IMG/VR virus record: IMGVR_UViG_3300021962_006733 | Location: 1-20,517 of that record | Strand: one strand, 5' to 3' | Length of the DNA: 20,517 bases | Source of the DNA: a virus | Shown: in pieces, positions 1,200 to 15,794 of the stretch | Numbering within the stretch: the stretch's first letter is position 1 | How the letters are laid out: every line of letters starts with the position of its first letter | Made by a program: the position numbers and the translations under genes | Notes under the pieces: model-generated | Databases searched by the model: none | What the model was told of the DNA's origin: nothing | What the model saw: only the letters and a program-made list of their open reading frames with translations

Positions 1200-2407
1200 G
1201 ATAAAGTATTCACTTCGTTGTGTAAATCTAATTCTCGTTTTATAATCTCTCTGTCATTCTCATTCATATTAGATAATAAACTCTTTGATTGAGCATACAC
1301 ATCTTTATAATCTACAGAGATAGATAGTAATTCACAGGCTTCTTTTATGATTTGTTCTGTAGTTTTTCTTGAATTGCCTAGTTTGCTTTGTAGTCGAGTA
1401 TCACGTAGAGCTTTACGGGCTACAGAATCTAAATCTACGTAGTCTGTTACATCTGGCAATCCTCTTATTCTTAATACCATATCCAATATACCTTCAATAC
1501 TGCTGTCTGTCTGCGTGTTATTATACAGAGGATTATCATAAGAAGCACGAGTTGTATATTTTTCAAAATAGTCTTTCCAGGATGGGTTTTGACTGACTCT
1601 TAATAGAAGATTTCTAGAACTTTCCTGTGACGCTAATGTAGAATATGATAACGTATTTGTAATTGAGTTTTCGTAAGTAATTATACTACCAAGATTAGAA
1701 ACCTCTAATGCAATTTGATCTAATATTGCAGATCTGTTTGAAATAAGTCTTGTTCTACGTTCAGCATATATGCTAGACGATAATGTAGAATTGAAACTGT
1801 CTGCGGCGGTATCAATTGATGTTAATAAATTTTGAAATGTAATAGAGTTAAATGCCGTACTATCAACCAATGTGTCTATGTAATCAATTAGATTTTGAAG
1901 TGCAGTTTGAAAGTCATTATCTTGTGACAAAGATTTTGAATTTATGAAAGTAATATCATTAGCAACCTGTTGTAAATTAGAATCAATCGCTCCAGCTAAA
2001 GTTCCAAAGTGTCCATTTATTCCTCTACTAATAGAATCTGCATCAGTTCCATATAAACTAGGTAGAGTGTTTATAAATCCCATTACAGTTTCTAAATGAT
2101 CAATAAATGTTGATTGAACATCATCTTGAACTATCTGTCCTAATTCTCCTGTGAGCAGTTTGGCTGTATGATTAGGCAAATCTATTAGATATCGACCAAT
2201 ATTGAGATAAGAATGTCTATCTAGTGAATTTACAATATCACTTTTATTGCTGTTTGTAAGAACATCATCACCAGAATATTTTTCAATTAGTAGTTTTGTT
2301 TTTGCCGCAAAGCCTATGTTGCATTGATTTAACAATGATGAAATAGCATTATCAGAGAAGTTAGGTGACTGCTGTGATAGACTCAGAAGTCCTTGATATA
2401 CTGGCAT
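1196..2407 (-). CDS. Probable baseplate or virion structural protein, 403 aa
   Basis: I do not recognise a domain. The protein begins MPVYQGLLSLSQQSPNFSDN, is rich in serine, asparagine and leucine, and looks mostly helical, with repeated short amphipathic stretches, no signal peptide and no membrane segment. The open frame continues 59 codons upstream through the PAAR gene, but that part is arginine/tryptophan-rich nonsense in the wrong frame. The true start is the ATG at 2407, whose A overlaps the TAA of the PAAR gene (TAATG), so translation is coupled. The position directly after a PAAR spike protein and the size suggest a baseplate or tail-associated protein; this rests on context only. 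Confidence 0.7.
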   Translation of the reverse strand: MPVYQGLLSLSQQSPNFSDNAISSLLNQCNIGFAAKTKLLIEKYSGDDVLTNSNKSDIVNSLDRHSYLNIGRYLIDLPNHTAKLLTGELGQIVQDDVQSTFIDHLETVMGFINTLPSLYGTDADSISRGINGHFGTLAGAIDSNLQQVANDITFINSKSLSQDNDFQTALQNLIDYIDTLVDSTAFNSITFQNLLTSIDTAADSFNSTLSSSIYAERRTRLISNRSAILDQIALEVSNLGSIITYENSITNTLSYSTLASQESSRNLLLRVSQNPSWKDYFEKYTTRASYDNPLYNNTQTDSSIEGILDMVLRIRGLPDVTDYVDLDSVARKALRDTRLQSKLGNSRKTTEQIIKEACELLSISVDYKDVYAQSKSLLSNMNENDREIIKRELDLHNEVNTLS

Positions 2408-2829
2408 TAGAATGATCCTTCTGTGGATGTTAGATCTCCTCCACCACCTGCAGGTAATGCAGGTCCTATAAATGACACTACTTGTAATGCAGTTGATAGG
2501 AATGATCCAAAGCCTCCGCGTTTGCCACCACCTACTGGACCACCAACAAATACATTTGGAGAACCTTGTACCACGCTTGTGCAAGTAGCATCTCCGACTT
2601 TGCCCACAGCACGACCTTCAGCAAACACAGTTCCTTGAGATGCTATCAATGGTACAGAATGTCCACAACAGGATTTCCCACAAGGTTTTAAGTGGGTAGT
2701 ATTTTTGTGTCCATTACCACTTACAGGTATTGCGTTAGCAAATACAGTTCTGAATGCACCTTTTCTTCTAGGTGTTGAACAGTGTGTTGCTTCTTTATCA
2801 CCCTTACGGGCTATTGGCATACTCGGCAT
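2407..2829 (-). CDS. PAAR-motif baseplate spike tip protein
   Basis: PAAR proteins cap the central spike of contractile tails and type VI secretion systems with a sharp, metal-stabilised cone; T4 gp5.4 is the phage example. The 140-residue product starts MPSMPIARKGDKEATHCS and shows the repeated glycine-rich PAAR pattern: FANAIPVSGNGHKNTTHL, then HSVPLIASQGTVFAEGR and AVGKVGDATCTSVVQGSPNV. Histidines and cysteines (HC at 16-17, H41, H46, C50, C54, C55, H57) could bind the metal ion. A glycine-rich tail follows (about residues 95-140). A second in-frame ATG at 2820 is possible. An AATAAATA late box lies just upstream, and the stop overlaps the next start as TAATG. Confidence 0.9.
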   Translation of the reverse strand: MPSMPIARKGDKEATHCSTPRRKGAFRTVFANAIPVSGNGHKNTTHLKPCGKSCCGHSVPLIASQGTVFAEGRAVGKVGDATCTSVVQGSPNVFVGGPVGGGKRGGFGSFLSTALQVVSFIGPALPAGGGGDLTSTEGSF

Positions 2830-2834
2830 AAACG

Positions 2835-2842
2835 TATTTATT
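2835..2842 (-). promoter_or_regulatory. Late-promoter-like box AATAAATA before PAAR gene
   Basis: AATAAATA on the minus strand differs by one base from the T4 late box TATAAATA. It ends five bases before the ATG at 2829, so a start site six bases downstream would coincide with the start codon. It overlaps the end of the upstream dioxygenase gene. Confidence 0.5.
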
Positions 2843-3644
2843 TTAGTGTATCACCCAAGGTTATAGCATCGTTTGATTGAGGTATACGACAATCTTTAAG
2901 AATATTTTTATTGTTTTGCAGATGTTTTGGTAAAACCCCATAACCAAAAATTAGTGTTTGTCTGATATTATCTGTCATATTAGCGGCAGTACCGTGCAAT
3001 AACCACCCATCAAACATTAAACAATCTCCAGTTTTTAGTTCAATTGGAACCATATTGTGTCCTTTATAAATCTTAATATCAGTAGGAGTTATTTTCATTT
3101 GTAGACACGCACAACTTTTTCCTGATGCACACCCGTCGTCGCAATATTTTAAACTTTCAGTTCTTTTTGGTTCTATATCTTCTACCCAAAGACACCCACC
3201 CTGTTCAGTGGTATCAGTTAAACTAACATAGGCGCTGTAGAATTCGTTTGTAATTGTATGATGAAAGCTAGAAGGATTATCTTGATGTGGTAACAGTCCT
3301 TGGTAATCTTTTTTTTGATTTATAACTCTATCTTTTATAAATCGTACATCGTCATTTATTTTTCGAAATTCGTCTTCAAAATGTTTTATTAGTTCTACAC
3401 CTTCTGGTCTGGTTTGTAATTTTCCAGTACAACGTAGCATATAAGGACCGTTGGCATCTTTATAAACTATGCTTGAATAAGCATCATCAATCTTTTTATT
3501 TTTTACACCTGCCCATTCTAATATAACTTCTTTTTCTATTGCTGATACAGTGCTTTTCCATTTTTTTATCTGTTCGTGATCGAACATATTTTTAATGACT
3601 GTGTATCCTTTGTTTTGTAATTCTAGTAAATTTTTTTGTTCCAT
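2838..3644 (-). CDS. PhyH-family 2OG-Fe(II) dioxygenase, copy 1
   Basis: Members of the phytanoyl-CoA dioxygenase family use Fe(II), O2 and 2-oxoglutarate to hydroxylate small molecules. The 268-residue protein has the HxD iron ligands in LLPHQDNPSS (H120, D122), the distal histidine in WLLHGTA (H217) and a 2OG-binding arginine in NIRQTLIFGYG (R228). The length is normal for the family. An unusual insertion, C168-x3-C172-x5-C178-x-C180, could bind a metal or form disulfides. It is a paralogue of the gene at 5876-6667, with a 96-bp identical DNA tract. It is the last gene of a four-gene cassette, 9 nt after the TIM-barrel gene, and has its own AATAAATA box. The substrate is unknown. Confidence 0.9.
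   Translation of the reverse strand: MEQKNLLELQNKGYTVIKNMFDHEQIKKWKSTVSAIEKEVILEWAGVKNKKIDDAYSSIVYKDANGPYMLRCTGKLQTRPEGVELIKHFEDEFRKINDDVRFIKDRVINQKKDYQGLLPHQDNPSSFHHTITNEFYSAYVSLTDTTEQGGCLWVEDIEPKRTESLKYCDDGCASGKSCACLQMKITPTDIKIYKGHNMVPIELKTGDCLMFDGWLLHGTAANMTDNIRQTLIFGYGVLPKHLQNNKNILKDCRIPQSNDAITLGDTLK
3160..3255. repeat. 96-bp direct repeat, copy in dioxygenase 1
   Basis: By eye these 96 bases are identical to 6177-6272 in the second dioxygenase gene, in the same orientation, while the flanking parts of the two genes differ at many positions. They encode the region after the HxD motif through the WVEDIEPKR segment. The partner is 3,017 bases away. Confidence 0.85.
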
Positions 3645-3650
3645 TTGAAA

Positions 3651-3658
3651 TATTTATT
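3651..3658 (-). promoter_or_regulatory. Late-promoter-like box AATAAATA before dioxygenase 1
   Basis: AATAAATA on the minus strand ends six bases before the ATG at 3644 and overlaps the stop of the preceding gene. The expected transcript would begin at about 3645, one base before the start codon. There is no Shine-Dalgarno sequence. Confidence 0.5.
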
Positions 3659-4544
3659 GTTGCAATAGTTCTGATACAATAGTTTTAATATCATTCTCTG
3701 CGTGTATATTATCTATTGCCTTGCCAGCATACAATATTCCGTTTTTGCCTTCTTTAACAGTATGCATAAGATTTTTACTTAAATTCTTATCATCGTTTTC
3801 TAATCTAGTACCTATAGACAGTAAATTACTATTGTTGATTTGTTCTCGTTTCAAATCACTACTATTTTTTGATATGAGCATCTGTTTGCTTTCTTTGGAC
3901 AGATTAGATTCTTTTGCAACAGCAAACAACGTGCCTATTAAAACAGCATCGGCTCCGTATCTAAATGCGTTATCTATATCGTTCTTATTTGTAATACCTC
4001 CACTTGCTAACACAGGTAAATTAAAATTCTTTTTAGCCCATACGATAGATTCTTCTAATGTTTGATCTGATGTAGATCCTGCGGCATTGTTGTTTTTTAC
4101 ATTTATTCCTTGCACTTTATCCAAAATATATCCATCAAGATTAACTGTATTGCCTGCTTTAGTATTAATACTCTTAACGTAGACTTTGCACTTTATTTTA
4201 GGAAACAGTACATCAAAAAGAAACTTGTCTTTGTCATGATAGCCTATTCCTAAATGTGCTGGATCTCCGTTGTTGTATATTTCTACATATTTTGGTTTGT
4301 ACTGAAGAAGAAACCCGTGAAATTTAATATTTCTAAAATTAACATTATTAGTTGCAATAATTATATCTCGAGTATCTGAAAAAAAATCATCCCATTCTTC
4401 TTCCGTAAGGTAGTGATTGTGATCTGGGTTATCTGTAAACACTGTACCTGGCACTATACCGCTCTTAGATAGAGACCGTAACCATTCTAGACAGCCCACT
4501 CCCCACATTGGTTGTACACCTATTTTTAATTTATTTTCTAACAT
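3654..4544 (-). CDS. Nitronate monooxygenase-like TIM-barrel protein
   Basis: The 296-residue protein resembles nitronate monooxygenase/2-nitropropane dioxygenase and FabK flavoproteins. The N-terminus reads KIGVQPMWGVGCLEWLRSLS, like the PI-QGPMGGVS--ELAAAVS start of that family. The FMN-phosphate region is clear: LPVLASGGITNKNDIDNAFR followed by YGADAVLIGTLFAVAKES (residues 177-213). The segment that holds the catalytic histidine in classical enzymes (EAGGH) appears here as NNAAGST (153-158), so the histidine seems absent and the reaction may differ. It is a little shorter than usual. The start overlaps the methyltransferase gene by 14 nt, implying coupled translation within the cassette. 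IMPDH-like or other FMN-barrel folds are alternatives. Confidence 0.75.
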   Translation of the reverse strand: MLENKLKIGVQPMWGVGCLEWLRSLSKSGIVPGTVFTDNPDHNHYLTEEEWDDFFSDTRDIIIATNNVNFRNIKFHGFLLQYKPKYVEIYNNGDPAHLGIGYHDKDKFLFDVLFPKIKCKVYVKSINTKAGNTVNLDGYILDKVQGINVKNNNAAGSTSDQTLEESIVWAKKNFNLPVLASGGITNKNDIDNAFRYGADAVLIGTLFAVAKESNLSKESKQMLISKNSSDLKREQINNSNLLSIGTRLENDDKNLSKNLMHTVKEGKNGILYAGKAIDNIHAENDIKTIVSELLQQ

Positions 4545-5859
4545 GAAGCACCCAAGTTACAAATCCAAACTTATCGTTGATTGTTTGATATTCAAAATTG
4601 TGTATTTTAAATTGTTCTTCATATTCTTTTTTAGTGTGCAGAAACATTTTACCCTGTAAACTTTTTTCTTTGTTTTCAATTTCTTGCTGAGTCAACCCAT
4701 TAGATGCTTTCCATTTATGATAAATGTTTCTGTCGACCTCTTTGGTTTTTTCAGATAATATAATCAGTCCTGACTGATTTATTTTTTTTTTGAAATCTGT
4801 AAGTAGATTCCATTTATTTTCATTGAAATGTAAAGTCCAGTTTGAGATTATTACATCATAATTTTCTTCAGGTAATTTGTCGTCACAAATAAGTTTAGCA
4901 ATAGAGTCAGGACATTTATCTAACATTGTTTGACTAGAGTCAACTCCTGATATATTTTTATAACCATTATAACGCAGAGTTCTTAATGTACTCCCTGTTG
5001 CACATCCAAAATCTATTATTTTTTTATCCGTAGTAATATTGTATCTGTGTAGAATAGAGGGTAACTGTTTGATTATATGTTCATAATCAGGAATGTGTTT
5101 TATGGCATGATCTTCAAAAATCTGTGCCACTTCGTCATTAAACTTCCATTCTGTCTCCTGCATTGTAATTGGCTTTGCAGACGTGTTATCGTATCTTCCT
5201 ATTAAAAAATACTTCCATTTTTTAAACCATTCAGGAAGTACCATCTCAGCAACTTTGTGTGCTTTTTTATCAACAGTATATCCATATTTGATCATAAAAT
5301 ATTCTAAGAAGTCCATAGTTGAATGCCATTTTTGAACTTTGATACTTTTTTCAGGATCACTTGTAAATTGATTTTTATCTCGCCAAACAGTAAGTTGTGG
5401 CCCATTCCCCCATTCTAATATAGTTTCTTCAATTATAATAGTTTTTCTTGAGGATAAAAGTTTTTCTAATACTGAAAGATAGTTTTCAGTAAGATGTAAC
5501 GTTGAGGATAGAACAATTACATCAAAATTATCAAAGTTACAATGATTAATAAAATTTTCTATTGAATCATGAAAGAAGTTATTTTTACTATCTATCAACG
5601 TCATTGCTGTATGTGCTATGTCTCTTTGTATTTCCACACCAGTGTAGTGAGCGTTATTCTCATTACACCAAATTTCAAAATAAGGTATTCCTGCTCCTAA
5701 ATCAAGAACACGTTGATTCTGTATGACTTTTCTAGGTAGAAGACATTGTGTCTTCTTAATAATTAGATCTACTGTTAGTGGATATATCTCATTATAATCA
5801 GCAGGTCTCACACGCCTACTGTCGTGTTTAAGCCATTCTGCGACGATAGTTGGATCCAT
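4531..5859 (-). CDS. Two-domain SAM-dependent methyltransferase, C-half CmoA-like
   Basis: Two class I methyltransferase folds lie in tandem in 442 residues. Domain 1 has motif I VLDLGAGIPYFEIW (51-64), the acidic residue GVEIQ (74-78) and a motif IV-like DVIVLSSTLHL (113-123). Domain 2 has motif I IIDFGCATGS (281-290), GVDSSQTMLDKC (305-316) and DVIISNWTLHF. Domain 2 looks like CmoA, the carboxy-SAM synthase of tRNA wobble uridine modification: compare NDEVAQIFEDHAIKHIPDYE upstream of motif I, then IILSEKT and KASNGLTQQEIENKE after it. The arginine CmoA has before ANGY seems to be replaced. The 16-nt gap upstream of the ATG holds a 14-bp near-palindrome (5861-5874). No Shine-Dalgarno sequence is seen. 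The substrate is unknown. Confidence 0.8.
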   Translation of the reverse strand: MDPTIVAEWLKHDSRRVRPADYNEIYPLTVDLIIKKTQCLLPRKVIQNQRVLDLGAGIPYFEIWCNENNAHYTGVEIQRDIAHTAMTLIDSKNNFFHDSIENFINHCNFDNFDVIVLSSTLHLTENYLSVLEKLLSSRKTIIIEETILEWGNGPQLTVWRDKNQFTSDPEKSIKVQKWHSTMDFLEYFMIKYGYTVDKKAHKVAEMVLPEWFKKWKYFLIGRYDNTSAKPITMQETEWKFNDEVAQIFEDHAIKHIPDYEHIIKQLPSILHRYNITTDKKIIDFGCATGSTLRTLRYNGYKNISGVDSSQTMLDKCPDSIAKLICDDKLPEENYDVIISNWTLHFNENKWNLLTDFKKKINQSGLIILSEKTKEVDRNIYHKWKASNGLTQQEIENKEKSLQGKMFLHTKKEYEEQFKIHNFEYQTINDKFGFVTWVLHVRK

Positions 5860-5875
5860 ACCAATACTTATTGGA

Positions 5876-6667
5876 TTATTTTTGTGCTGTTTTTCTTTTG
5901 ATCATGTACTTTTTGTAAACATTTGTTGTGTCTTTATCTTCTTGCCTCATAGCACCATAACCAAATATTAAAGTTTGTCTTACTACATCACTCGTATTAG
6001 TAGCAGTACCGTGTAATAACCAACCATCAAACATAATACAGTCTCCAGTTTTTAGTTCAATTGGAACCATATTGTGTCCTCTGTAAGTCTTAATGTCTGT
6101 AGCTGTAATCTTCATAGGAAAACATTTGCAAGTCTTTCCTGATGCACATCCATCTCGACAGTATTCTAAACTAGTTGTTCTTTTTGGTTCTATATCTTCT
6201 ACCCAAAGACACCCACCCTGTTCAGTGGTATCAGTTAAACTAACATAGGCGCTGTAGAATTCGTTTGTAATTTCTTCGTGTACACTAGAAGGATTATCTT
6301 GATGTGGTAAGAAAGCAGGATAGTCTTGTTTTTGAGTAATGATTCTATCTTTTATAAATCGTACATCATCATTTATTTTTCGAAATTCATCTTCAAAATG
6401 TTTTATTAGTTCTATACCTTCTGGCCTGGTTTGTATTTTTCCATTACATTTAATCATGAACAATTTGTTACCTTCTCGAAGCACGTTAGGTTCAATAAAC
6501 TCATTAGGATTTGAATCTTTAATTCCTGCTGTTTCTAGAATAACTTCTTTTTCTATCTCTTTTATTAATGTTTTCCAGTCATTGACGTTCTCAATAGTCA
6601 ACAGATTTTTAATAACAGTATAACCTTTTTTCTTAAGTTCTTGTAAATTATTGTCAGATATAAACAT
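5876..6667 (-). CDS. PhyH-family 2OG-Fe(II) dioxygenase, copy 2
   Basis: The 263-residue protein shares the fold and most of the sequence of the dioxygenase at 2838-3644. Iron ligands are in FLPHQDNPSS (H122, D124) and WLLHGTA (H219); the 2OG-binding arginine is in VVRQTLIFGYG (R230). The same four-cysteine insertion is kept (C170, C174, C180, C182). The N-terminal 70 residues and C-terminal 25 are the most diverged from the paralogue, while the core holds a 96-bp identical tract, suggesting duplication with gene conversion. It is the first gene of the cassette, with a GATAAATA late box ending six bases before its ATG and an overlapping 12-bp palindrome. Similar proteins are common in marine T4-like phages; their substrates are generally unknown. 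Confidence 0.9.
   Translation of the reverse strand: MFISDNNLQELKKKGYTVIKNLLTIENVNDWKTLIKEIEKEVILETAGIKDSNPNEFIEPNVLREGNKLFMIKCNGKIQTRPEGIELIKHFEDEFRKINDDVRFIKDRIITQKQDYPAFLPHQDNPSSVHEEITNEFYSAYVSLTDTTEQGGCLWVEDIEPKRTTSLEYCRDGCASGKTCKCFPMKITATDIKTYRGHNMVPIELKTGDCIMFDGWLLHGTATNTSDVVRQTLIFGYGAMRQEDKDTTNVYKKYMIKRKTAQK
6177..6272. repeat. 96-bp direct repeat, copy in dioxygenase 2
   Basis: Identical by eye to 3160-3255. Shorter near-identical blocks also flank it in both genes. Recombination between the copies would delete the methyltransferase and TIM-barrel genes and leave one in-frame chimeric dioxygenase. Confidence 0.85.
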
Positions 6668-6673
6668 TGTTAA

Positions 6674-6681
6674 TATTTATC
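6674..6681 (-). promoter_or_regulatory. Late-promoter-like box GATAAATA before dioxygenase 2
   Basis: GATAAATA on the minus strand lies six bases before the ATG at 6667, with no Shine-Dalgarno sequence between. The predicted start site is about 6668. The box overlaps the perfect palindrome ATCAGTACTGAT at 6679-6690. Confidence 0.55.
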
Positions 6682-6690
6682 AGTACTGAT
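6679..6690. promoter_or_regulatory. 12-bp perfect palindrome ATCAGTACTGAT, possible operator
   Basis: The 12 bases are their own reverse complement and overlap the upstream edge of the late box that would drive the metabolic cassette. A dimeric regulator could bind here; this is inference from symmetry and position. Confidence 0.35.
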
Positions 6691-6712
6691 TTTTGTAAAA
6701 GAAATTTACAAT

Positions 6713-6868
6713 TTATAGATTGAATTTATCTAAAAATCTTTTACTGCTTTCGTTAGCAGTTTCTCGCATATGGTTTTTAATTCTTTCCATAAGCTCTTCT
6801 AGATGCTGTTCATACTTTTCTGGATCTTCAGCAAAGTTTTTTAAGAAATCGTCGTCAAAATTATCCAT
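6713..6868 (-). CDS. Small acidic protein, 51 aa, coupled to nrdB
   Basis: Unrecognised. It begins MDNFDDDFLKNFAEDPEKYE and continues as one or two charged helices (residues about 18-45) ending SSKRFLDKFNL. The frame is open upstream into nrdB, but the natural start is the ATG at 6868, which overlaps the nrdB stop as TAATG, so translation is coupled. Its stoichiometric link to the reductase could mean a role in nucleotide metabolism, or it may just be a passenger. A stem of seven AT pairs follows the stop but has no U-tract, so it is not a convincing terminator. Confidence 0.7.
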   Translation of the reverse strand: MDNFDDDFLKNFAEDPEKYEQHLEELMERIKNHMRETANESSKRFLDKFNL

Positions 6869-7968
6869 TATAGAGAAAATTTCTTGAATGAGTCTTTTTT
6901 GACGTCTTGTTTGATACCACCAACGATATAACTTTCCACTTCGGTCTCCTGGGGAGCGACTTGCATACCCCTTGAGCTCAACCAATGTGATGTCCACGGC
7001 AGGGGATTCTGTGTTGCTGGAGTATCGAACTCAGGATCAAATCCCAATGATTTTAATCTTTTGTTGGCGATGTGTTCCACGTACTGTCCTAATAATCTCT
7101 CGTTCAATCCAATGATACTTCCATCCTTGAACAGATGTCTTGCCCAGGCCTTTTCCTCTTCCACGCACTTCTTAAACATCTCTATCACAGTCTTGTCTTG
7201 ACTTTTCATAATCTTGACCATGTCTTTGTCGTCGCCTTTTTGCCAGGCCTTGATCACGTGTGTGGTTAAATTTAAATGTGTTGCTTCGTCTCGAGCAATC
7301 AGTGAAAGTATCTTAGCAGATCCTTCCATCAGTTTCAGTTCTCCAAATGCGAATGTGCAGGCGAAAGATACATAGAATCTCAATCCTTCTAATAGGTTCA
7401 CATTGACCATTGCTAGATATAATTGTTTCTTAACTTCGTCCATGTCGCCTTTGCCTTTGACCACATAGTCCTGTGCAATTTCTGAGAAGCGATCATAGTT
7501 CTCTGTGACTGACACTGCTCGTTTTAGTATCTCGTTGTCGTTCAATATTGTGTCAAACACTTCTGATGGATCTGCGTACACGTTCTTCATTATGTGTGTG
7601 TAGGCTCTGGAGTGTATGGTTTCAAAGAAATCCCAAGTAACAATACAGCCTTCCAACTCTGGATTAGAACAGTAGGGTAGGAAACTTAGGCAAGGTCCTC
7701 GACCTTGTACTGAATCCAACAGTGTCTGATATTTTAAATTTGATGTGAATATGTGCTTCTGTTCTGGACGGAAGTTTTGAAAATCTGCTCTATCCTTCTG
7801 TAGTGATACTTCCTCTGCTCTCCAGAAGTAGCCCAACATTGTTTGGTTCAGTTTGTCAAATTGTGGATACTTGAACACGTCATATCTCTGGATCGCTTGA
7901 TCTTCCCCAAAGAACATGGGTTGTTTGCTCCAGTCCACTTCATTTCTGTTGAATACTGTTTTTGCCAT
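6868..7968 (-). CDS. nrdB: Ribonucleoside-diphosphate reductase, beta subunit (class Ia)
   Basis: NrdB houses the diiron-tyrosyl radical that starts ribonucleotide reduction in the NrdA partner. The 366-residue protein shows the E. coli-type signatures: FFGEDQAIQRYD near the N-terminus, NLKYQTLLDSVQGRGP with iron ligand D85, and ETIHSRAYTHIMKN with E116, H119 and the radical tyrosine Y123. Later ligand helices are LLEGLRFYVSFACTF and ARDEATHLNLT. The C-terminal tail (about 350-366, ending FKKFSL) has the form that docks on NrdA. It starts 3 nt after nrdA, in the same operon, with a weak AAGG just before the ATG. Length and key residues are intact, so it should be active. Confidence 0.97.
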   Translation of the reverse strand: MAKTVFNRNEVDWSKQPMFFGEDQAIQRYDVFKYPQFDKLNQTMLGYFWRAEEVSLQKDRADFQNFRPEQKHIFTSNLKYQTLLDSVQGRGPCLSFLPYCSNPELEGCIVTWDFFETIHSRAYTHIMKNVYADPSEVFDTILNDNEILKRAVSVTENYDRFSEIAQDYVVKGKGDMDEVKKQLYLAMVNVNLLEGLRFYVSFACTFAFGELKLMEGSAKILSLIARDEATHLNLTTHVIKAWQKGDDKDMVKIMKSQDKTVIEMFKKCVEEEKAWARHLFKDGSIIGLNERLLGQYVEHIANKRLKSLGFDPEFDTPATQNPLPWTSHWLSSRGMQVAPQETEVESYIVGGIKQDVKKDSFKKFSL

Positions 7969-7971
7969 ACC

Positions 7972-10443
7972 TTAAATTACACACGCCTCACAATCGTCAT
8001 CCTCTTCAGACATAACTGATTCAGTGTGTCCATTAACTTTAGCATGACCATTGACTTCTGTCAATTGATCTAGCTCAACATCTTCTCCATCTTGTGTTTC
8101 TGTAGTTTCAATACCAGATGGTTGATGATCTTCTTCCTCACCTTTGAAGTCATAGGTATTTTGGTAATAAGAAGTTTTCCAACCGTATTTGTAGGAGGTT
8201 AACAGATCATTGGCCATCACTGACAGGGGAACTTCGTTGTTCTCGTAGTTCTGCGGATTGTAACTCCAGTTACCAGATATAGCCTGATCAAAATATTTCT
8301 GCATCATTGCCACAATATTAATATAACCCTCGTTGCTTTTCATTTCCCACAACAGAGTGTAGGCATTTTTTAATTTAGGAAAGCCTGGCACTATCTGTTT
8401 GAGTGGTCCTTTTTTACTTTTCTTAATGGATAACAATGCTCTCGGTGGTTCAATACCGTTCGTCTCGTTGCTGACAACTGAAGAACTCTCTGATGGCATC
8501 TGTGCGGACAATGTGCTGTGCCTCAATCCAAACTTGGCGATGTCCTTTCTCAGAGCCTCCCAAGCATATCGAGTCTTGTGTGGCACGATCTTGTCTATGT
8601 CTTTCTTGTAGGTGTCTATCGGTAGGAGACCATCCGCATATTTGGTCCTATCAAATGCTTCACACTTACCTCTTTCTTCTGCTAGTTTATTACTTGCTTT
8701 CAATAGATTGAATTGGAATGCTTCTGACAGCCTGTCCACAGCGTCCCAAGCGTTGTTGTCTTCATATTTCAATCCCATCTTTGCAAGATAGTGTGCCAAC
8801 CCAATGTAACCTATGCCCAGCGATCTTCTTTTTCGAGTGGATATCTCTGCCGCTTTCACAGGGTATTCTTGATAGTCTATAATCTCTTCTAGTGCTCTCA
8901 CTGCTAGATCACAAAGATTTTCTAATTCTTCCAGATGATTCAATGATCCTACATTAATAGCGGAAAGGATGCAGAGTGCTATTTCCCCATCCACATCATC
9001 GATATGATTGATAGGTGTTGTGGGCAGAGTGATCTCTTGACAGAGATTGCTCATAGAAACTTTGTCTTTAAATGAAGAATGAGAATTCACGTGATCGATG
9101 TTCATTATGTAGATACGTCCTGTTTCTGCTCGCTCTTTCAAAAGATCAAAGAACAGTTCTTGTGCTGATATTTTCTTACCATTGGCAGATTTGTCTTTCT
9201 CATATTTCACATATAGTTCGTCAAATGCTTCGGTTCCGAATGCGTCATACAGTCCCGGAACTTCGTGTGGAGAGAACAGAGTGATCTCTTGATCATTGAT
9301 GAATCTTTCATAGAACAGTTTGCTGATCTGTATGGAATAATCCAGTTTACGAACTCGATTGTCTTCTGTGCCTTTGTTGTTCTTTAGTACCAGTATGTCT
9401 TCAATCTCTTGATGCCATATAGGGAAATGCACAGTTGCAGAACCGCCTCGCACACCATTCTGTGTGCAACATCTCACAGTGCTTTCAAATTTCTTGAGGA
9501 ACGGTACCACACCTGTGTGCTGTACTTCACCGCCTCTTATCTTTGCGTTGATCCCTCTGATCCTACCAGCATTGATACCAATGCCTGCACGGCGTGCCAC
9601 ATACAGACCAATAGCCATATCGCTAGAAAAAATAGAAGACAGAGTGTCGTCACTGTCCACCAAAACGCAACTTGCAAATTGACGTATAGGTGTTCTAACA
9701 CCTGCCATGACCGGAGTTGGGATATTAATTTTGAATTGCGAAATTGCATCATAATATCTTTTAACATAGTTCATCCTTTTGTTTTTTGGATAGTCAGCGA
9801 ACAAAGTTGCGGCGATCATCATATACATATCCTGAGGAGTTTCATACAGTTGTCCTGATGATCTATCCTGCACAAGATATTTGTCCACAACCTGTCTCAA
9901 ACCAGCATAGGCGAAATTGAGATCTCGCTCTCTGCGTATCCAAGTGTTGAGTTTTTTAATTTCAGTCTTATTGTATTTCTCCACTATGCCTTTATCATAA
10001 ACTCCTAATCTAATATTTCTCATAATCAATTTTAGTAGTGGAAGATATTCATACTGACCGTGAGCTTCTTTTCTTACATCATATAATAAAAGTCTTGAAG
10101 CGGCGTATTGGTAATTAGGATTTTCTAGTGTGGTGAGGTCGTTGGCCGAACGCACCAATACGTTTTGAATGTCTTTAGAAGAGATACCATCAAAGAATTG
10201 TAGGTTGGCGTGTATCTCGATCTGTGATGCTGACACACCCGACAGTCCCTCGCAGGCCTCTTCTACGACGAAATGAATTTTGTTGATGTCCAATAACTCC
10301 TGAGTGCCATCCCTCTTGGTAATCTTGATGGTAGAAGGATTGGTCGCAGTCATAATTTTAATGTTCGAGTCAGTGATTGTTTTAGTTTTTGTATGGGTAT
10401 TTATCTGAATTTTTTTATTGGTGGTGGAAATAGTTTCTGTCAT
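7972..10443 (-). CDS. nrdA: Ribonucleoside-diphosphate reductase, alpha subunit (class Ia)
   Basis: NrdA carries the catalytic and allosteric sites that turn ribonucleoside diphosphates into deoxy forms. The 823-residue product has an N-terminal ATP-cone (about 36-125), redox cysteine C259 in FASCVLVDSDD, the active-site loop SNLCQEITLPT (N466, C468, E470), the partner cysteine C491 in CILSAINVG, and the C-terminal shuttle pair C818/C821 in DCEACVI. It is longer than E. coli NrdA (761) because of a threonine/lysine-rich N-terminal extension of about 30 residues and an acidic tail of about 60 residues containing a VNGH repeat. The ATG for residue 31 (10353) is a credible alternative start, since a GATAAATA box lies at 10399-10406 inside the extension. 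nrdB follows after 3 nt. Confidence 0.97.
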   Translation of the reverse strand: MTETISTTNKKIQINTHTKTKTITDSNIKIMTATNPSTIKITKRDGTQELLDINKIHFVVEEACEGLSGVSASQIEIHANLQFFDGISSKDIQNVLVRSANDLTTLENPNYQYAASRLLLYDVRKEAHGQYEYLPLLKLIMRNIRLGVYDKGIVEKYNKTEIKKLNTWIRRERDLNFAYAGLRQVVDKYLVQDRSSGQLYETPQDMYMMIAATLFADYPKNKRMNYVKRYYDAISQFKINIPTPVMAGVRTPIRQFASCVLVDSDDTLSSIFSSDMAIGLYVARRAGIGINAGRIRGINAKIRGGEVQHTGVVPFLKKFESTVRCCTQNGVRGGSATVHFPIWHQEIEDILVLKNNKGTEDNRVRKLDYSIQISKLFYERFINDQEITLFSPHEVPGLYDAFGTEAFDELYVKYEKDKSANGKKISAQELFFDLLKERAETGRIYIMNIDHVNSHSSFKDKVSMSNLCQEITLPTTPINHIDDVDGEIALCILSAINVGSLNHLEELENLCDLAVRALEEIIDYQEYPVKAAEISTRKRRSLGIGYIGLAHYLAKMGLKYEDNNAWDAVDRLSEAFQFNLLKASNKLAEERGKCEAFDRTKYADGLLPIDTYKKDIDKIVPHKTRYAWEALRKDIAKFGLRHSTLSAQMPSESSSVVSNETNGIEPPRALLSIKKSKKGPLKQIVPGFPKLKNAYTLLWEMKSNEGYINIVAMMQKYFDQAISGNWSYNPQNYENNEVPLSVMANDLLTSYKYGWKTSYYQNTYDFKGEEEDHQPSGIETTETQDGEDVELDQLTEVNGHAKVNGHTESVMSEEDDDCEACVI

Positions 10444-10548
10444 CGGTTCCGTCGTTCTTGTTTATTTTTATATGCTAGTATAACGAAGGAATCGTTGTGT
10501 GTCTATAGGAAAAAAAGAAATGTGGGTAGATTATTTTACAACTGACGG
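10444..10548 (-). promoter_or_regulatory. Gap between tail spike and nrdA, likely nrd promoter region
   Basis: This 105-bp minus-strand gap precedes nrdA. It holds a TATACT hexamer (near 10480) and a TATAAAAATA stretch (about 10464-10473), but I see no convincing -35 element, no exact late box and no terminator with a U-tract. A weak stem AACGA/TCGTT with a five-base loop lies near 10483-10497. Some promoter is expected here; its identity is unsure. Confidence 0.3.
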
Positions 10549-12147
10549 TTATACCATTTCAGATACTTGATGATCCATAGTAGCCGCAGTACCTGTAGAA
10601 GTAGTGGTAAATTTTATTGTAACAGTTTCGTTTCCGGAAACAGTTGAATCTTCATCACTCATATCAGCAGTAAGAGTAACACCAATGTCTGTGTTTTCTT
10701 CATACTCATCATTGTAAGTAGTTAATGTGCCATTGGCATTAACTACAAAGGTACCTACTCTATAACCAGTACCTCTTTCAATTTTATAATTGATAACAAT
10801 TTTTTTATTTGCTGAAACGTGTAATCTAATTCCTGTTGTGGTAGCCGAAGATGTGTTGTCAGCAAGAGTAATTTGTTGAATTTGTTTTTGCGATACTCCT
10901 ATTCCTTGTACTTCTGGAATTGGAGTGATACTAGTTGATCTTCTTTGAGTTCCATCAAAATAATCTAATAAACTTGAACATTCGTCTGTATTGAAAAGAA
11001 TGATAGGAGAGTAACCATCTGTTAAATTAACATCATCATTAGCCGTTCCTACTGTTCGTGCAAAGAAGTTATTAAAACTTACAACACCTCTTACTTCTCC
11101 GACACCAGAATTAGCTCCTGATGCTGTTCCGTCTACTCTGATACCATTTGAATAAATGTTATCAAATGTTGAACTTGTAATTTTTACATCCTTAGGACCA
11201 ATAGTTAAACCATTTGTAGATCCATCCACTGCTTCTCCTACGTATACACCATATCTTCCTGTGGAGAATTTACAGTCGTGTAATTTAATAGAAGTTGCAT
11301 CATATGAGAAATCTGCCAATCGTGCAAATTTTGTAAACTCACAAGAATCAAAAATAATATTTGAACAAGTTAAAGCATTTGTTGATCTTATTGTAACACC
11401 TTTTGAAGTTGTTACATCAGCACCGCCTGCCGCATATGTGCCTTGAAATTTACATCTCACAAAACGAGCATTGGTTACTGAATCCAAACTCACACCATTG
11501 TGTGCAGTTCCGTTTTTGAACGTCATTCCTTCGATATTAATATTAGTTGCTACAGTGGTCATAGCACCATACTCGTTGCCTGCATTGTCCTGTGTTTTCG
11601 CTACAGGAGCTGATGACCCTGAATAATAAATGATTGACTTGTCTATACCTTCACCTTCTATTGTTGCGTAAGGTGGTATTGTAATGGAAGAACTGATATT
11701 GTATTGACCAGCTGGAAAGAAAAGTTTTCTTCTAGATCGAGAATCTGTTTTGTCTGTGTCTGTGTACAATTCATCTAGTGCTCTTTGAATAGCCGCAGTA
11801 TCATCTGTACTACCATCTCCGGTGGCACCAAATGCTTTTATAGATACGTAATCGTCTAATCTCTGTTGTAGTGTTCGAGTAATATCTATACCGTTACCTG
11901 TAACGATAGGTGTGGATGCACCAAGATATCCTTTGTAAATGTATGATATTGCTGTAAGAAAACTAGATGACCCAGCAGTCATTATTTCTGTATTACCTAC
12001 AGCAGGAGCACCGTCTGCTACTGTGCCGTTTCCAATATATAATCTTTGTTCATCAACAACCCAACCCAACTCGCCAGCCGCAAGTTGTGGTAGATCTGTA
12101 GCAAGACCTCTTCTGTGTTGAATACGTGATATCTGAACAACTGCCAT
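10549..12147 (-). CDS. Tail spike/fibre with pectate-lyase-type beta-helix
   Basis: The 532-residue protein is probably a receptor-binding or depolymerase tail spike on the virion. Residues about 5-50 (ISRIQHRRGLATDLPQLAAG, then ELGWVVDEQRLYIGNG) match the short repeat found at the start of many phage fibre proteins and in the major tropism determinant N-terminal domain. Residues about 100-380 begin YVSIKAFGATGDGSTDDTAA, the hallmark of the pectate_lyase_3 family, and continue as a glycine/asparagine-rich beta-helix with short NIxFxxCxF-like coils. The rest (about 400-532) is a threonine-rich beta domain. The start is set by a perfect TATAAATA late box ending nine bases upstream. It is the last gene before the gap to nrdA. 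Whether it cleaves a polysaccharide cannot be told. Confidence 0.85.
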   Translation of the reverse strand: MAVVQISRIQHRRGLATDLPQLAAGELGWVVDEQRLYIGNGTVADGAPAVGNTEIMTAGSSSFLTAISYIYKGYLGASTPIVTGNGIDITRTLQQRLDDYVSIKAFGATGDGSTDDTAAIQRALDELYTDTDKTDSRSRRKLFFPAGQYNISSSITIPPYATIEGEGIDKSIIYYSGSSAPVAKTQDNAGNEYGAMTTVATNINIEGMTFKNGTAHNGVSLDSVTNARFVRCKFQGTYAAGGADVTTSKGVTIRSTNALTCSNIIFDSCEFTKFARLADFSYDATSIKLHDCKFSTGRYGVYVGEAVDGSTNGLTIGPKDVKITSSTFDNIYSNGIRVDGTASGANSGVGEVRGVVSFNNFFARTVGTANDDVNLTDGYSPIILFNTDECSSLLDYFDGTQRRSTSITPIPEVQGIGVSQKQIQQITLADNTSSATTTGIRLHVSANKKIVINYKIERGTGYRVGTFVVNANGTLTTYNDEYEENTDIGVTLTADMSDEDSTVSGNETVTIKFTTTSTGTAATMDHQVSEMV

Positions 12148-12156
12148 AATTTACAG

Positions 12157-12164
12157 TATTTATA
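12157..12164 (-). promoter_or_regulatory. T4-type late promoter box TATAAATA before tail spike
   Basis: This is the exact T4 late consensus on the minus strand, ending nine bases before the ATG at 12147. The expected start site near 12151 gives a leader of only about four bases. It abuts the stop of the nuclease gene. Confidence 0.75.
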
Positions 12165-12875
12165 TTAAAGAATGGACTTATAATATTGCTCTACTCTGCG
12201 ATACCACCGGTCGGACCATTTGTCGTAATCGTCTATTTCAAAGGTCTGATATTCGTTTTTCTGTGTGCATATAAAGATACGACCCGTGCGTATGTCCGTG
12301 TCAAATAACTTGTTGTGTGCCTCCGCATAGGCCACCAACTGTAGGAAATAGTCTTCCACCCATTCCGCTTTCTTTAGTTTGCGTGCCTGTTTGAAATCCA
12401 TTATGGCAGGTGCACCGTGACATACCCCCACAAGGTCTGTAGTGCCTGCATACAGTTCTGGATAGTAGAGATTGATCTCCGACCCCCAAACCTCTGATAC
12501 ATCTTTTAAACCGTGCTCAATGATCACATTAGCCATTGCGTGTGCTTTTTGTTGTATGAGGTTACTGCCAGGTGTACGATCTTGCCCTAACACGTGCTTC
12601 TCAAGACTGCGGTGCATCACTGTGCCGATGTTGGCTGATTCTGTAGCAATCCTCTGTGCCTCTTGTTCGCCTATTCTTTTCTTCCAAGCATTAAGGTGTG
12701 TCATGTCTTTGGTAGCAGAAAGTATAGTGGTTACTGATGGTACTTGTCTTCCGTCGGGTGTAGCATAATGTCTGCGACCTTCTGTGGTTACTCGTTTGAT
12801 TTGATCATAAGGATACTTTGCATTTACTACAATGCCTTGTTTTTGTAGAATTTCGTTTGATATTTTCACAGCCAT
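12165..12875 (-). CDS. RecB-like PD-(D/E)XK exonuclease
   Basis: This 236-residue protein belongs to the RecB/Cas4-like PD-(D/E)XK nucleases, which degrade or process DNA ends with divalent metals. Motifs appear in the expected order: GTVMHRSLE (H88), WGSEINLYYPE with E133, AGTTDLVG with D147, IMDFKQA with D160 and K162, and the helix DYFLQLVAYAEAH with the Q-x3-Y motif (Q179, Y183). Length and motif spacing are complete. In T4-like phages such nucleases serve in recombination, repair or host DNA breakdown. It lies between the radical SAM gene (8-nt gap) and the tail spike, and has no clear Shine-Dalgarno sequence. Confidence 0.85.
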   Translation of the reverse strand: MAVKISNEILQKQGIVVNAKYPYDQIKRVTTEGRRHYATPDGRQVPSVTTILSATKDMTHLNAWKKRIGEQEAQRIATESANIGTVMHRSLEKHVLGQDRTPGSNLIQQKAHAMANVIIEHGLKDVSEVWGSEINLYYPELYAGTTDLVGVCHGAPAIMDFKQARKLKKAEWVEDYFLQLVAYAEAHNKLFDTDIRTGRIFICTQKNEYQTFEIDDYDKWSDRWYRRVEQYYKSIL

Positions 12876-12883
12876 ATTATAAT

Positions 12884-14161
12884 TTATTTTAAGGAATCAG
12901 TCAAAGACTTTTCCAATTCAGGTAATAATTGTCTCCAAGTTTGTTTTTTTCTAAAACTGTCTTGAAAGTCATTATATCTAATAAACATTTTTTGATAGTT
13001 TCTTTTTTGATCTTTATTATATAATTCTCTCATAATATCTTCTGCGTGAGCTTTTAAATTATTTTTAATCTTTTCTATTTGTATTTTGTCAGCTGATATA
13101 GACAATTTCTCTGCAATCTTTTGTTTGTAGTCGGTAGGTGTTATTGAGTAATCGCATATAATTGGATATCTGACTTGTGATACCCAAGCAATATCACAAT
13201 TTTTAGTAATAAAATTTTCTATAAAGAAATTAATTAGATCGTCTAATTGATCAATGTTTAATAATTGTATTGCTGGTGCAAAAGAAAAATTCCCATTTTT
13301 ATGTTTTAAGATTGTTTGTTTATAGAATTCAATTGATTTTAAAACACTGTTCCAATCGCACGGAAAACGTATGTAGGTATTCCTTTCTTGTATTCCATCT
13401 ATACTAGCATGAATAGTAAAATGTCTAAGGTTACCTAACCAAGTGCTTAAATTTTTATTTGTATTGGTCATGTTGGTTGTAACCATTAAACTTTTTTCTT
13501 TCAGAGTATTTGCTCTATGACAATAATCTAATAATTCGTAAAATTCTTTTATGATAGTGGGCTCGCCTCCAATAACTGTTAAATTTTGAACGTGTTTGCT
13601 TACGTTTTCAAATATACTATTTTTAATTTTATCATTTTTATACCAGTCATATACTATGTCTAATTCACCTGTCCAATTGTTTAACACCCCAGACTCTTTC
13701 TTGACCCATTGTAAAAAGTCAGGATCTTGTTCACCCATTTTGATTAGCTCTTTGCCAATAGAATGACTGAACATTTGACTGCACATTTTACAGTGAAGAT
13801 TACAAGTGTTTCCAAAATGTAATTCAACCGACTCTGGAAAATGATCCACAGATCCATCTGCGTTTGTTCTTGCTATATTTTTTTTCCTATAAAGTTCTGT
13901 TCGCATTGATTGCAACCCTTCTGTTTCAGAACGCACACACTTCTCACAGTTAGGGATAGATTCGCCTGCAATCATTTTCTTTCGTATATTTTTCATATAC
14001 TCGCTGTTCCAACTGTCAAACAAGCCATCTCGAGAACTATTGTAATGATGATAGCCATCGTCTTTGAGGATATTATCCTCACTCATACAGCATATTTTTT
14101 GATGTCCAGAAGTATGCACATATAGATGTCTCCATGGATAATCACAATAGGATTTAGGCAT
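12884..14161 (-). CDS. Twitch-type radical SAM protein
   Basis: Radical SAM enzymes cleave S-adenosylmethionine with a 4Fe-4S cluster to start radical chemistry. The cluster motif is C120-NLH-C124-KM-C127, followed by the SAM-binding VIGGEPTII (GGEP at 198-201). Additional cysteines before the core (C6, C24, C25, and the pair NCEKC at C72/C75), together with PWRHLYVHTSG, look like the auxiliary-cluster part of SPASM/twitch proteins, here placed at the N-terminus. The 425-residue length is complete. Similar proteins occur in marine T4-like phages with no known substrate. The ATG overlaps the end of the glutathione peroxidase gene by 8 nt, so the two are likely translated together. Confidence 0.85.
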   Translation of the reverse strand: MPKSYCDYPWRHLYVHTSGHQKICCMSEDNILKDDGYHHYNSSRDGLFDSWNSEYMKNIRKKMIAGESIPNCEKCVRSETEGLQSMRTELYRKKNIARTNADGSVDHFPESVELHFGNTCNLHCKMCSQMFSHSIGKELIKMGEQDPDFLQWVKKESGVLNNWTGELDIVYDWYKNDKIKNSIFENVSKHVQNLTVIGGEPTIIKEFYELLDYCHRANTLKEKSLMVTTNMTNTNKNLSTWLGNLRHFTIHASIDGIQERNTYIRFPCDWNSVLKSIEFYKQTILKHKNGNFSFAPAIQLLNIDQLDDLINFFIENFITKNCDIAWVSQVRYPIICDYSITPTDYKQKIAEKLSISADKIQIEKIKNNLKAHAEDIMRELYNKDQKRNYQKMFIRYNDFQDSFRKKQTWRQLLPELEKSLTDSLK

Positions 14162-14564
14162 TTAACACATCCATTGGTAGTGTATAGGCATTGAATTGTT
14201 TTACAAATTCGTGTTTCTCATTGAAAAGATATTTGTTAAAGTTCCAATCAGGAGTGCCAAACTTTTTAAAAAATGTATGATCTGTGTTTGTTTTTTTACA
14301 AATTGGAAATGTTACACCATAACGATTTTTAGCAAATTGAATAATCTCATAGTCATCGCCTGGTTCTTGACTGCCAAAATTGTTTGTGGGAATAGCTATC
14401 GGAACGGCTAAACCTTCTTCGTATATTTTTTGAAAATCTGCTAACTGTTTGGTAAAGCCACATTGACTGGCTGTGTTAAAAATTATTAATTTTTTATTCC
14501 AGAATCTATCAGATGACAATAGTCCTAATTTTAATGATTCTAGACCTAGATCTATGATATCCAT
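14154..14564 (-). CDS. Glutathione peroxidase-like thiol peroxidase
   Basis: Glutathione peroxidases reduce hydrogen peroxide and lipid peroxides with glutathione or thioredoxin. The 136-residue protein has the peroxidatic cysteine in NTASQCGFTKQ (C35), the glutamine in NNFGSQEPGDD (Q66), and the WNF motif in DWNFNKYL (W107, N108), which together form the catalytic tetrad. It uses cysteine rather than selenocysteine. C89 in TFPICKK might serve as a resolving cysteine, though its place differs from the usual one. It is somewhat shorter than the bacterial average of about 160, mainly at the C-terminus. It lies 20 nt after an unknown gene and overlaps the radical SAM gene. Confidence 0.88.
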   Translation of the reverse strand: MDIIDLGLESLKLGLLSSDRFWNKKLIIFNTASQCGFTKQLADFQKIYEEGLAVPIAIPTNNFGSQEPGDDYEIIQFAKNRYGVTFPICKKTNTDHTFFKKFGTPDWNFNKYLFNEKHEFVKQFNAYTLPMDVLNA

Positions 14565-14584
14565 ACAGTTAATTAGTTGAACGA

Positions 14585-14944
14585 TTATGATCTTCTTTTA
14601 AGAGCGGATTTAGCCATTTTCTTTACCACATCAGTGGAACCAGTGTCGTCGTAATTCATAGGTTCGTCTTTGGCCATTGTTTTTTCAGTCTTGAGAATAA
14701 TCTTTTCTTGATTAAAATCATCCACTACACTTTTAAGTGCGTCGGACGAGTCATACATTGATTTGAATAATGAGTAAGTGAACTGTGGATAGCCTGTGTT
14801 CTTCATTATTTGATCCAGTGCGGCAAAACTGATTTCTGTGGTTTGCTCAGCATCGTTGGCATCACCTCGGATACTGTTGAGAGTGTTCACTATTGCTGAT
14901 TGCAGTTCAATTGTTTTGCTGTCTTGGAACTCAAAGAACCTCAC
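14585..14944 (-). CDS. Hypothetical protein, 119 aa, GTG start
   Basis: Unrecognised. The product starts (V/M)RFFEFQDSKTIELQ, is mostly helical and polar, and ends with a basic tail, KKMAKSALKRRS. The frame stays open with an ATG at 15040, which would overlap the upstream gene by 92 bases, but an AAGGAG sits eight bases before the GTG at 14944, inside the last codons of that gene. The GTG is therefore the real start, four bases after the upstream stop. The tight spacing suggests it works or assembles with the 281-residue protein. Confidence 0.75.
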   Translation of the reverse strand: MRFFEFQDSKTIELQSAIVNTLNSIRGDANDAEQTTEISFAALDQIMKNTGYPQFTYSLFKSMYDSSDALKSVVDDFNQEKIILKTEKTMAKDEPMNYDDTGSTDVVKKMAKSALKRRS

Positions 14945-14948
14945 AGGA

Positions 14949-15794
14949 TTATCTCCTTGCGAGTTTAGATAATATTCTTGATGTGGTTTCGAAAACTTCT
15001 CTTGACTCTCTTTGCTCTCTGCCTTCTGGTTCAGTTCCACCTGCTTCTGCGTCTGAGGCTCCGAACTCGTCTGAGTCAGAGTCTAATGAGTCTAAGTCTT
15101 CTTCTGAATCTAAATCTGCTTCAGGTTCGCCCATTGGTTCTGCGGCTGTTTCTTCACCAGTTAATATTCTCACACCACTTTCTAAATCTTCTCTAGTTTG
15201 TGATAGAGCGGCTTCTGCTGACTCAATAGCAGGTTGGATTTTAGCAACGAAAGCATCTGCTTTGTCTGCACCCATTTCATCTCTGATTGAATCTGCTAAT
15301 GATAACATACCTTCTGTTTTCATTGAAGCAAGATCTTCAAGGTAACCTGTTACTTTGTCCATCATATCTTTTGCGGCAAGAATTAATTCTGATTGTTGTT
15401 CAATGCCTTCTTTGACTTCTGATTCTTTCTGTACCATAGCACCAATCAACTGATCTTTGTCCTGCGGGTTAAGAGTGGGTATGTTTTGAATTTTTTTAAT
15501 TACAGCCTGTTGTGCTGGAGGTATGTTTGTGTTGATACCTTGTCCTGCTTCTTTTACTGCCTGATTAACTATGTCTAACATTGCCTGTGATTTTTGATAC
15601 TCGTTGTTCTTCAACTCGTGTCCAAAGTGCATATTGTCTGTTAGAGTGTGAATTTTTGTTCTGATATGATTAGCAACATCTTCCATTTGCTCTACTGTCA
15701 TACCAGTTAGGTTTACTGTTTGTCCAAAACGAGTTTCAAACGTTTTTAACAAACTCTCTGCTGTTACGGGTTTTGTAAATTCTTTGCTGTGCAT
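14949..15794 (-). CDS. Helical protein with acidic tail, 281 aa, possibly assembly-related
   Basis: I cannot name a family. Residues about 1-215 are predicted helical by composition, with coiled-coil-like runs (QQSELILAAKDMMDKVTGYL and AIESAEAALSQTREDLESGV). Residues about 216-262 are a low-complexity acidic stretch of repeated D, E and S (DLDSEEDLDSLDSDSDEFG), and the end is basic (RILSKLARR). This layout, a helical body with a charged disordered tail, is typical of phage scaffold or assembly proteins, but that is only an analogy. Two TAAATA boxes lie upstream, one ending five bases before the ATG. The next gene's ribosome binding site lies inside its last codons. Confidence 0.7.
   Translation of the reverse strand: MHSKEFTKPVTAESLLKTFETRFGQTVNLTGMTVEQMEDVANHIRTKIHTLTDNMHFGHELKNNEYQKSQAMLDIVNQAVKEAGQGINTNIPPAQQAVIKKIQNIPTLNPQDKDQLIGAMVQKESEVKEGIEQQSELILAAKDMMDKVTGYLEDLASMKTEGMLSLADSIRDEMGADKADAFVAKIQPAIESAEAALSQTREDLESGVRILTGEETAAEPMGEPEADLDSEEDLDSLDSDSDEFGASDAEAGGTEPEGREQRESREVFETTSRILSKLARR

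Follow-up and report, generated by a model that had tools for sequence, protein, structure and literature searches.

The viral DNA analysed here, a stretch of 20,517 nucleotides (IMG/VR record IMGVR_UViG_3300021962_006733, positions 1 to 20,517; hereafter the window), carries on its minus strand at 2838-6667 a cassette of four genes that we read as a candidate tailoring pathway, expressed late in infection, in which an acceptor would be oxidised and then carboxymethylated. Central to this reading is a two-domain protein in which a synthase for carboxy-S-adenosylmethionine (carboxy-SAM) would be fused to the transferase that uses its product. We put the probability of the whole at roughly 40%. 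The cassette itself is real and unusual. Three observations on it are new here: a late-promoter motif before both of its PhyH genes, the CmoA family membership of the C-terminal domain (C-domain) of the two-domain protein, and the loss of the GGH motif from its nitronate monooxygenase (NMO)-like protein.

A four-gene cassette on one strand

An earlier annotation from the letters alone (the sequence-only reading) had described four one-strand genes with short gaps or overlaps, two of them PhyH dioxygenases enclosing the others, and all four open reading frames (ORFs) were found on the minus strand at its coordinates. In transcription order they encode PhyH-A, a PhyH-family 2-oxoglutarate (2OG)-Fe(II) dioxygenase of 263 amino acids (5876..6667; Pfam PhyH, 4.4e-15); the two-domain protein of 442 amino acids (4531..5859); an NMO/FabK-like TIM-barrel protein of 296 amino acids (3654..4544); and PhyH-B, a 268-residue paralogue of PhyH-A (2838..3644; PhyH, 2e-17). 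A gap of 16 nt follows the first gene, the second and third overlap by 14 nt, 9 nt separate the third from the fourth, and the PAAR gene begins 8 nt further. Because every ORF fits a known fold and relatives show a clean empty site (see below), the block is not a product of chance.

The two-domain protein carries a CmoA-family domain

The 442-residue product had been called a two-domain methyltransferase. Pfam does recognise two class I methyltransferase domains (N-domain, residues ~1-215; C-domain, ~206-442), but the label is too generic for the second, which matches PHROG 4752 (6.3e-42) and the CmoA/YecO structures 1im8 and 4gek in the PDB (5.6e-18). Against a CmoA profile made from E. coli CmoA and phage and plasmid homologues, with the window sequence left out, the C-domain scores 119 bits; among all ORFs compared, the highest-scoring unrelated methyltransferase reaches 22 bits. 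The lid motif YHxWKxxNGLTxxEIxxKEKSLxG is present, and CmoA residues Tyr39, Asp62, Gly64, Asp89 and Glu164 are retained, with Ser66 replaced by Ala and Asn90 by Ser. Judged by these matches, the C-domain is a member of the CmoA (carboxy-SAM synthase) family over its whole length, including the lid.

In E. coli CmoA, Arg199 binds the carboxylate through a salt bridge (PMC3663124). The C-domain has Glu at this position, where other phage homologues also vary. We considered whether the missing Arg199 excludes carboxy-SAM synthesis and rejected this argument: the CmoA of phage S-B43, shown biochemically to be a highly active carboxy-SAM synthase (PMC12783734), is also without Arg199, and the K-E-K at E. 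coli positions 198-200 is identical in the two proteins. Residue 199 is therefore not diagnostic.

A possible counterpart of the fusion is found in an 84.5-kb phage contig (L199), where homologues of the N- and C-domains (26% and 33% identical, respectively) are two genes with a 14-nt overlap. The pair is preceded by a 2OG-FeII_Oxy_5 gene and two genes that are 2OG-oxygenase-like by reading only, and followed by a gene with a marginal Asp_Arg_Hydrox match; PF05721 was not found in this record. The two genes fit a synthase and transferase pair that would be fused in the window, and no other fused copy was present among the loci examined. In L195-L198 the C-domain homologue adjoins genes with a methyltransferase-like motif I, assigned by inspection only, and Pfam did not confirm a methyltransferase for the three such neighbours tested (L195, L196). 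The partners of the C-domain homologues in L195-L199 differ from those in the cassette.

Late-promoter motifs precede both PhyH genes

The motif ATAAATA occurs five times in the window, always on the minus strand, and four of the five copies sit 5-9 nt before the starts of the PAAR, PhyH-B, PhyH-A and fiber genes. The copy at 6674..6680 lies 6 nt before the PhyH-A ATG; that at 3651..3657 lies 6 nt before the PhyH-B ATG and overlaps the stop codon of the NMO-like gene; and that at 2835..2841 lies 5 nt before the PAAR ATG and overlaps the PhyH-B stop codon. The probability of this placement is ~6e-9 under uniform placement, a figure that ignores the A+T-richness of gene junctions. Comparison across relatives is the better control, and there the motif precedes PAAR in 15/21 cases and fiber in 18/22, as against 0/7 for nrdA, 7/74 for nrdB and 0/17 for PDDEXK (pooled contrast, Fisher p ~1e-16, uncorrected for relatedness). 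The published cyanomyovirus late promoter is NATAAATA (PMC2984593), and NATAAATA is found close upstream of late genes, as for a T4-type late promoter. Distances of 5-6 nt from motif to ATG would mean very short leaders.

The position of these motifs makes a late promoter probable for PhyH-A, together with the genes downstream of it, and for PhyH-B, and the cassette is probably expressed late, since ATAAATA precedes both PhyH genes as it does PAAR and fiber. The cassette does lie between nucleotide-metabolism and tail genes, as the sequence-only reading had it, and the late motif ties it to the late, virion genes and not to the neighbouring nucleotide metabolism. The motif would thereby connect an accessory metabolic block with virion production and not with early host takeover.

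The PhyH pair and the NMO-like protein

PhyH-A and PhyH-B are 68% identical over 246 residues. The HxD...H iron ligands (HQD in PhyH-A) and an Arg 11 residues past the distal His are invariant in both copies (H122, D124, H219 and R230). Both also contain a C-x3-C-x5-C-x-C cluster in a dioxygenase loop (PhyH-A residues 170-182), possibly a metal site. The synonymous divergence (dS) between the copies is 0.35-0.39 at residues 81-150 compared with 0.96 at residues 1-80, which is no more than suggestive of local gene conversion. The closest PDB sequence to PhyH is 6ec3, a methyltransferase-oxygenase fusion (E 0.008). Methylphosphonate hydroxylase was tried as an identity within the cassette and found no support (28.5 bits against an NCBIfam cut-off of 500).

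The NMO match of the barrel protein (Pfam, 2e-14) is confined to residues 154-232. The GGH motif of nitronate monooxygenase carries the catalytic His. Alignment with two bacterial relatives shows that the half binding the flavin mononucleotide (FMN) phosphate, GGI...GT(L/R)F, is retained, and that the GGH of NMO/FabK is gone: ESGGH/EAGGH has become NNAAGST, with AAG in place of GGH. Nitronate oxidation is unsupported because the GGH of true NMO/FabK proteins is missing; on its sequence, the product of 3654..4544 is best called an NMO/FabK-fold protein.

An accessory insertion at a variable site in T4-like marine phages

The locus recurs, with 5 differences over 16.3 kb, in a second, longer IMG/VR contig (G001; 38,389 bp) and is thus not an artefact of a single assembly. 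The virus is a T4-like marine phage: its NrdA is ~69% identical to the NrdA proteins of Synechococcus T4-like phages, and nrdB (6868..7968, minus strand), which served as the conserved anchor for locating related loci, is 73-87% identical across 80 environmental phage loci. A cytochrome b-like gene in a related phage (L040) finds its best genome match in 'Candidatus Fonsibacter' (69%); from this we would guess at an alphaproteobacterial (SAR11-like) host for this phage group, which is not demonstrated for the present virus.

Upstream the cassette is flanked by nrdB and a small minus-strand ORF (6713..6868; 51 amino acids from the ATG at 6868, within a longer GTG ORF at 6713-6997), and downstream by the PAAR-motif baseplate spike gene (2407..2829, minus strand; Pfam/PHROG). 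The closest arrangement, in L023, has nrdB, then a homologue of the small ORF and at once PAAR, and is free of the cassette; in L075, L019, L061, L031 and L027 PAAR follows within ~100 nt of nrdB, again with no block. None of the four genes gave a tblastn match in the 80 related loci, and 40 whole records of relatives contained no full-length cassette gene, only short, weak PhyH-profile matches in five. By this comparison the cassette is a single-block accessory insertion between nrdB plus the small ORF and PAAR. We infer a gain in this lineage; loss in the others would be less economical. Foreign base composition was considered as proof of recent acquisition and rejected: GC content at third codon positions (GC3) in the cassette is 0.20-0.25, the same as in PAAR and fiber (nrdA/nrdB, 0.39-0.45; total GC is low), so composition is no such proof.

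Relatives carry different genes at this site, which marks it as an insertion hotspot: L009 and L072 have a GIY-YIG endonuclease, L040 and L042 a cytochrome b-like gene, and L021 a lipoprotein-like ORF. The GIY-YIG-like homing endonuclease ORFs, whose family was assigned by reading only, lie at L009:2841-3527 and L072:3203-3889. The cytochrome b-like gene, of the respiratory complex III type, occupies the position of the cassette at L040:11110-12363 and, in L042, after nrdB from 11098 onward.

A pair of ORFs at 12884-14564 of the window, kept in L075 and L040, encodes a Twitch-domain radical SAM protein (NF033640, 290 bits) and, after it, a glutathione-peroxidase-like product. The longer contig of this virus (L008) is dense in accessory genes at 2640-14955, with two amidinotransferase/arginine deiminase (ADI)-like genes, an amidohydrolase, a radical SAM protein, a methyltransferase, a 2OG-oxygenase-like gene and a nucleotide-sugar dehydrogenase, as well as several glycosyltransferase-like ORFs that are paralogues of one another and match neither Pfam nor PHROG.

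A candidate pathway and its acceptor

From these families we infer carboxy-SAM synthesis, carboxymethyl transfer, an order of reactions and an acceptor as follows. The PhyH dioxygenases would hydroxylate the acceptor, the two paralogues perhaps acting at two positions or on two substrates. The C-domain would convert SAM and prephenate into carboxy-SAM, from which the N-domain of the same protein would pass the carboxymethyl group (-CH2-COO-) to the acceptor, and the NMO-like flavin-type barrel may carry out a further redox or isomerisation step. This would parallel the hydroxylate-then-carboxymethylate logic of 5-carboxymethoxyuridine (cmo5U) in transfer RNA (tRNA). The earlier idea that the enzymes hydroxylate, alkylate and oxidise one substrate survives in this form, except that, with a C-domain in the CmoA family, the alkyl group may be carboxymethyl and not methyl. 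As the fused enzyme is a single protein of modest size, a direct assay with SAM and prephenate would put the central claim to the test at little cost.

In the SAR11 group, genomes from the order that includes a Fonsibacter assembly also have CmoA-family genes (L180:8741-9535, L181:8259-8990), which lie within apparent surface-polysaccharide clusters containing NeuB-, HisF/HisH- and amidotransferase-like genes (annotated by reading). In phages L196-L198 the C-domain homologue stands beside amidinotransferase-, glycosyltransferase- and 2OG-like genes with homologues in G001 (amidinotransferase, 37%, 4e-67); the glycosyltransferase label derives from a motif alone, and neither Pfam nor PHROG matches those genes. 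L196 and L197 also carry an asparagine-synthetase-like SGGxDS ORF. Late expression together with homologues in cell-surface polysaccharide clusters favours, by a small margin over DNA, a glycan or a group on the virion or host surface as the acceptor. The full proposal, in which a virion or cell-surface glycan is hydroxylated by PhyH and then carboxymethylated late in infection by one enzyme that makes and uses carboxy-SAM, is unlikely to be right in every part, and we found no description of such a bifunctional enzyme in the open-licence literature.

Alternative explanations

Several points count against an oxidise-then-carboxymethylate pathway. The C-domain is only ~25% identical to verified CmoAs and scores 70.8 bits against the NCBIfam equivalog TIGR00740, far under the curated cut-off of 193, so its carboxy-SAM activity is a prediction; the N-domain resembles generic methyltransferases and has no CmoB-family match. 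A+T-rich gene junctions could partly explain ATAAATA near starts, two sites overlap stop codons, and AlphaFold gave no usable structure for PhyH-A (predicted local distance difference test, 33.9) or the NMO-like protein (32.0). The full four-gene set is known from one virus only, and the argument for a shared pathway is accordingly one of adjacency. Short-peptide scans of viral contigs with PhyH, NMO and methyltransferase sequences returned the same virus only; PhyH had no match in a scan of genome contigs or by tblastn against phages and plasmids, and its profile found none in 297 genomes from the order that includes a Fonsibacter assembly at an E limit of 1e-12, a weak negative.

One alternative is ordinary surface-glycan tailoring. 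Both domains would then be plain methyltransferases, the CmoA fold only methylating or being structural, and with PhyH they would modify O-antigen or other host or virion sugars. The polysaccharide clusters of SAR11, the L196-L198 neighbourhoods and the fusion 6ec3 as nearest structure all agree with this, whereas the lid signature and the K-E-K triad indicate carboxy-SAM chemistry and the glycosyltransferase-like genes lack family matches; we consider it possible, if on balance improbable. Alternatively, the four could be unrelated accessory genes (morons) that gathered at the hotspot and share no pathway, as its varied cargo and the want of a second virus with the set would allow. Their tight spacing with an overlap, common strand and similar GC3, the duplicated PhyH genes flanking the set and the recurrence of the N-/C-domain pair with 2OG genes in L199 make this distinctly unlikely.

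The relationship of the C-domain to the CmoA of phages that encode it beside a DNA cytosine methyltransferase (PMC12783734) raises the further possibility of DNA hypermodification, with carboxymethylated bases in viral DNA as made by CmoA/CmoX/CmoY of S-B43. Neither the [ST/G]PPC cytosine-methyltransferase motif of CmoX nor the asparagine-synthetase SGGxDS motif of CmoY is present in the 38-kb contig, which is an incomplete genome, and the promoters of the cassette are of late type. PhyH enzymes, moreover, are not known to hydroxylate DNA, and we find this explanation unlikely. Support of nucleotide metabolism alongside the adjacent ribonucleotide reductase is highly improbable: adjacency to nrdB is all that recommends it, while the cassette is preceded by a late-type motif of its own, which nrdA and nrdB mostly lack, and differs from them in GC3.

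Comparison with known systems

In agreement with the sequence-only reading, no phage system with this gene set was found described in the open-licence literature. The nearest structure, 6ec3, which we take to be an EvdMO1-type methyltransferase-PhyH fusion with a role in orthosomycin formation, resembles the cassette in that a methyltransferase and a PhyH-type oxygenase work together; unlike the cassette, it is a single fusion of the two and acts on a bacterial oligosaccharide antibiotic, and the sequence match is weak.

Among users of carboxy-SAM, CmoA and CmoB of the tRNA cmo5U pathway (PMC10491745) share with our proposal a hydroxylation followed by carboxymethylation and the pairing of synthase with transferase, but they are separate proteins, and their hydroxylases are unrelated to PhyH. 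TglE/TglF (3-thiaglutamate) and MccS with the C-terminal domain of MccB (MccB-CTD; microcin C) likewise combine a carboxy-SAM synthase homologue with a separate transferase domain for tailoring; their substrates are peptides, the transferase is free or fused elsewhere (MccB), and no PhyH or NMO-like partner is described (PMC10491745, PMC9239234). The idea that MccS is a two-domain fusion was rejected, since MccS is described as a free-standing synthase whose transferase resides in MccB (PMC10491745, PMC9239234). The 5-carboxymethylcytosine system of Synechococcus phage S-B43 (PMC12783734) is alike in coming from a T4-like marine phage, in K-E-K at 198-200 and in pairing a CmoA-family domain with an alkyl-acceptor methyltransferase. 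Unlike it, the cassette has its CmoA-like domain fused to a non-C5 methyltransferase, adds PhyH and NMO-like genes and a late motif, and sits at PAAR and not among replication genes. If the C-domain is active and fused to its transferase, the protein would be a new architecture among the few carboxy-SAM users (tRNA, microcin C, 3-thiaglutamate and phage 5-carboxymethylcytosine), and this would suggest that phages use carboxymethylation on targets beyond cytosine.

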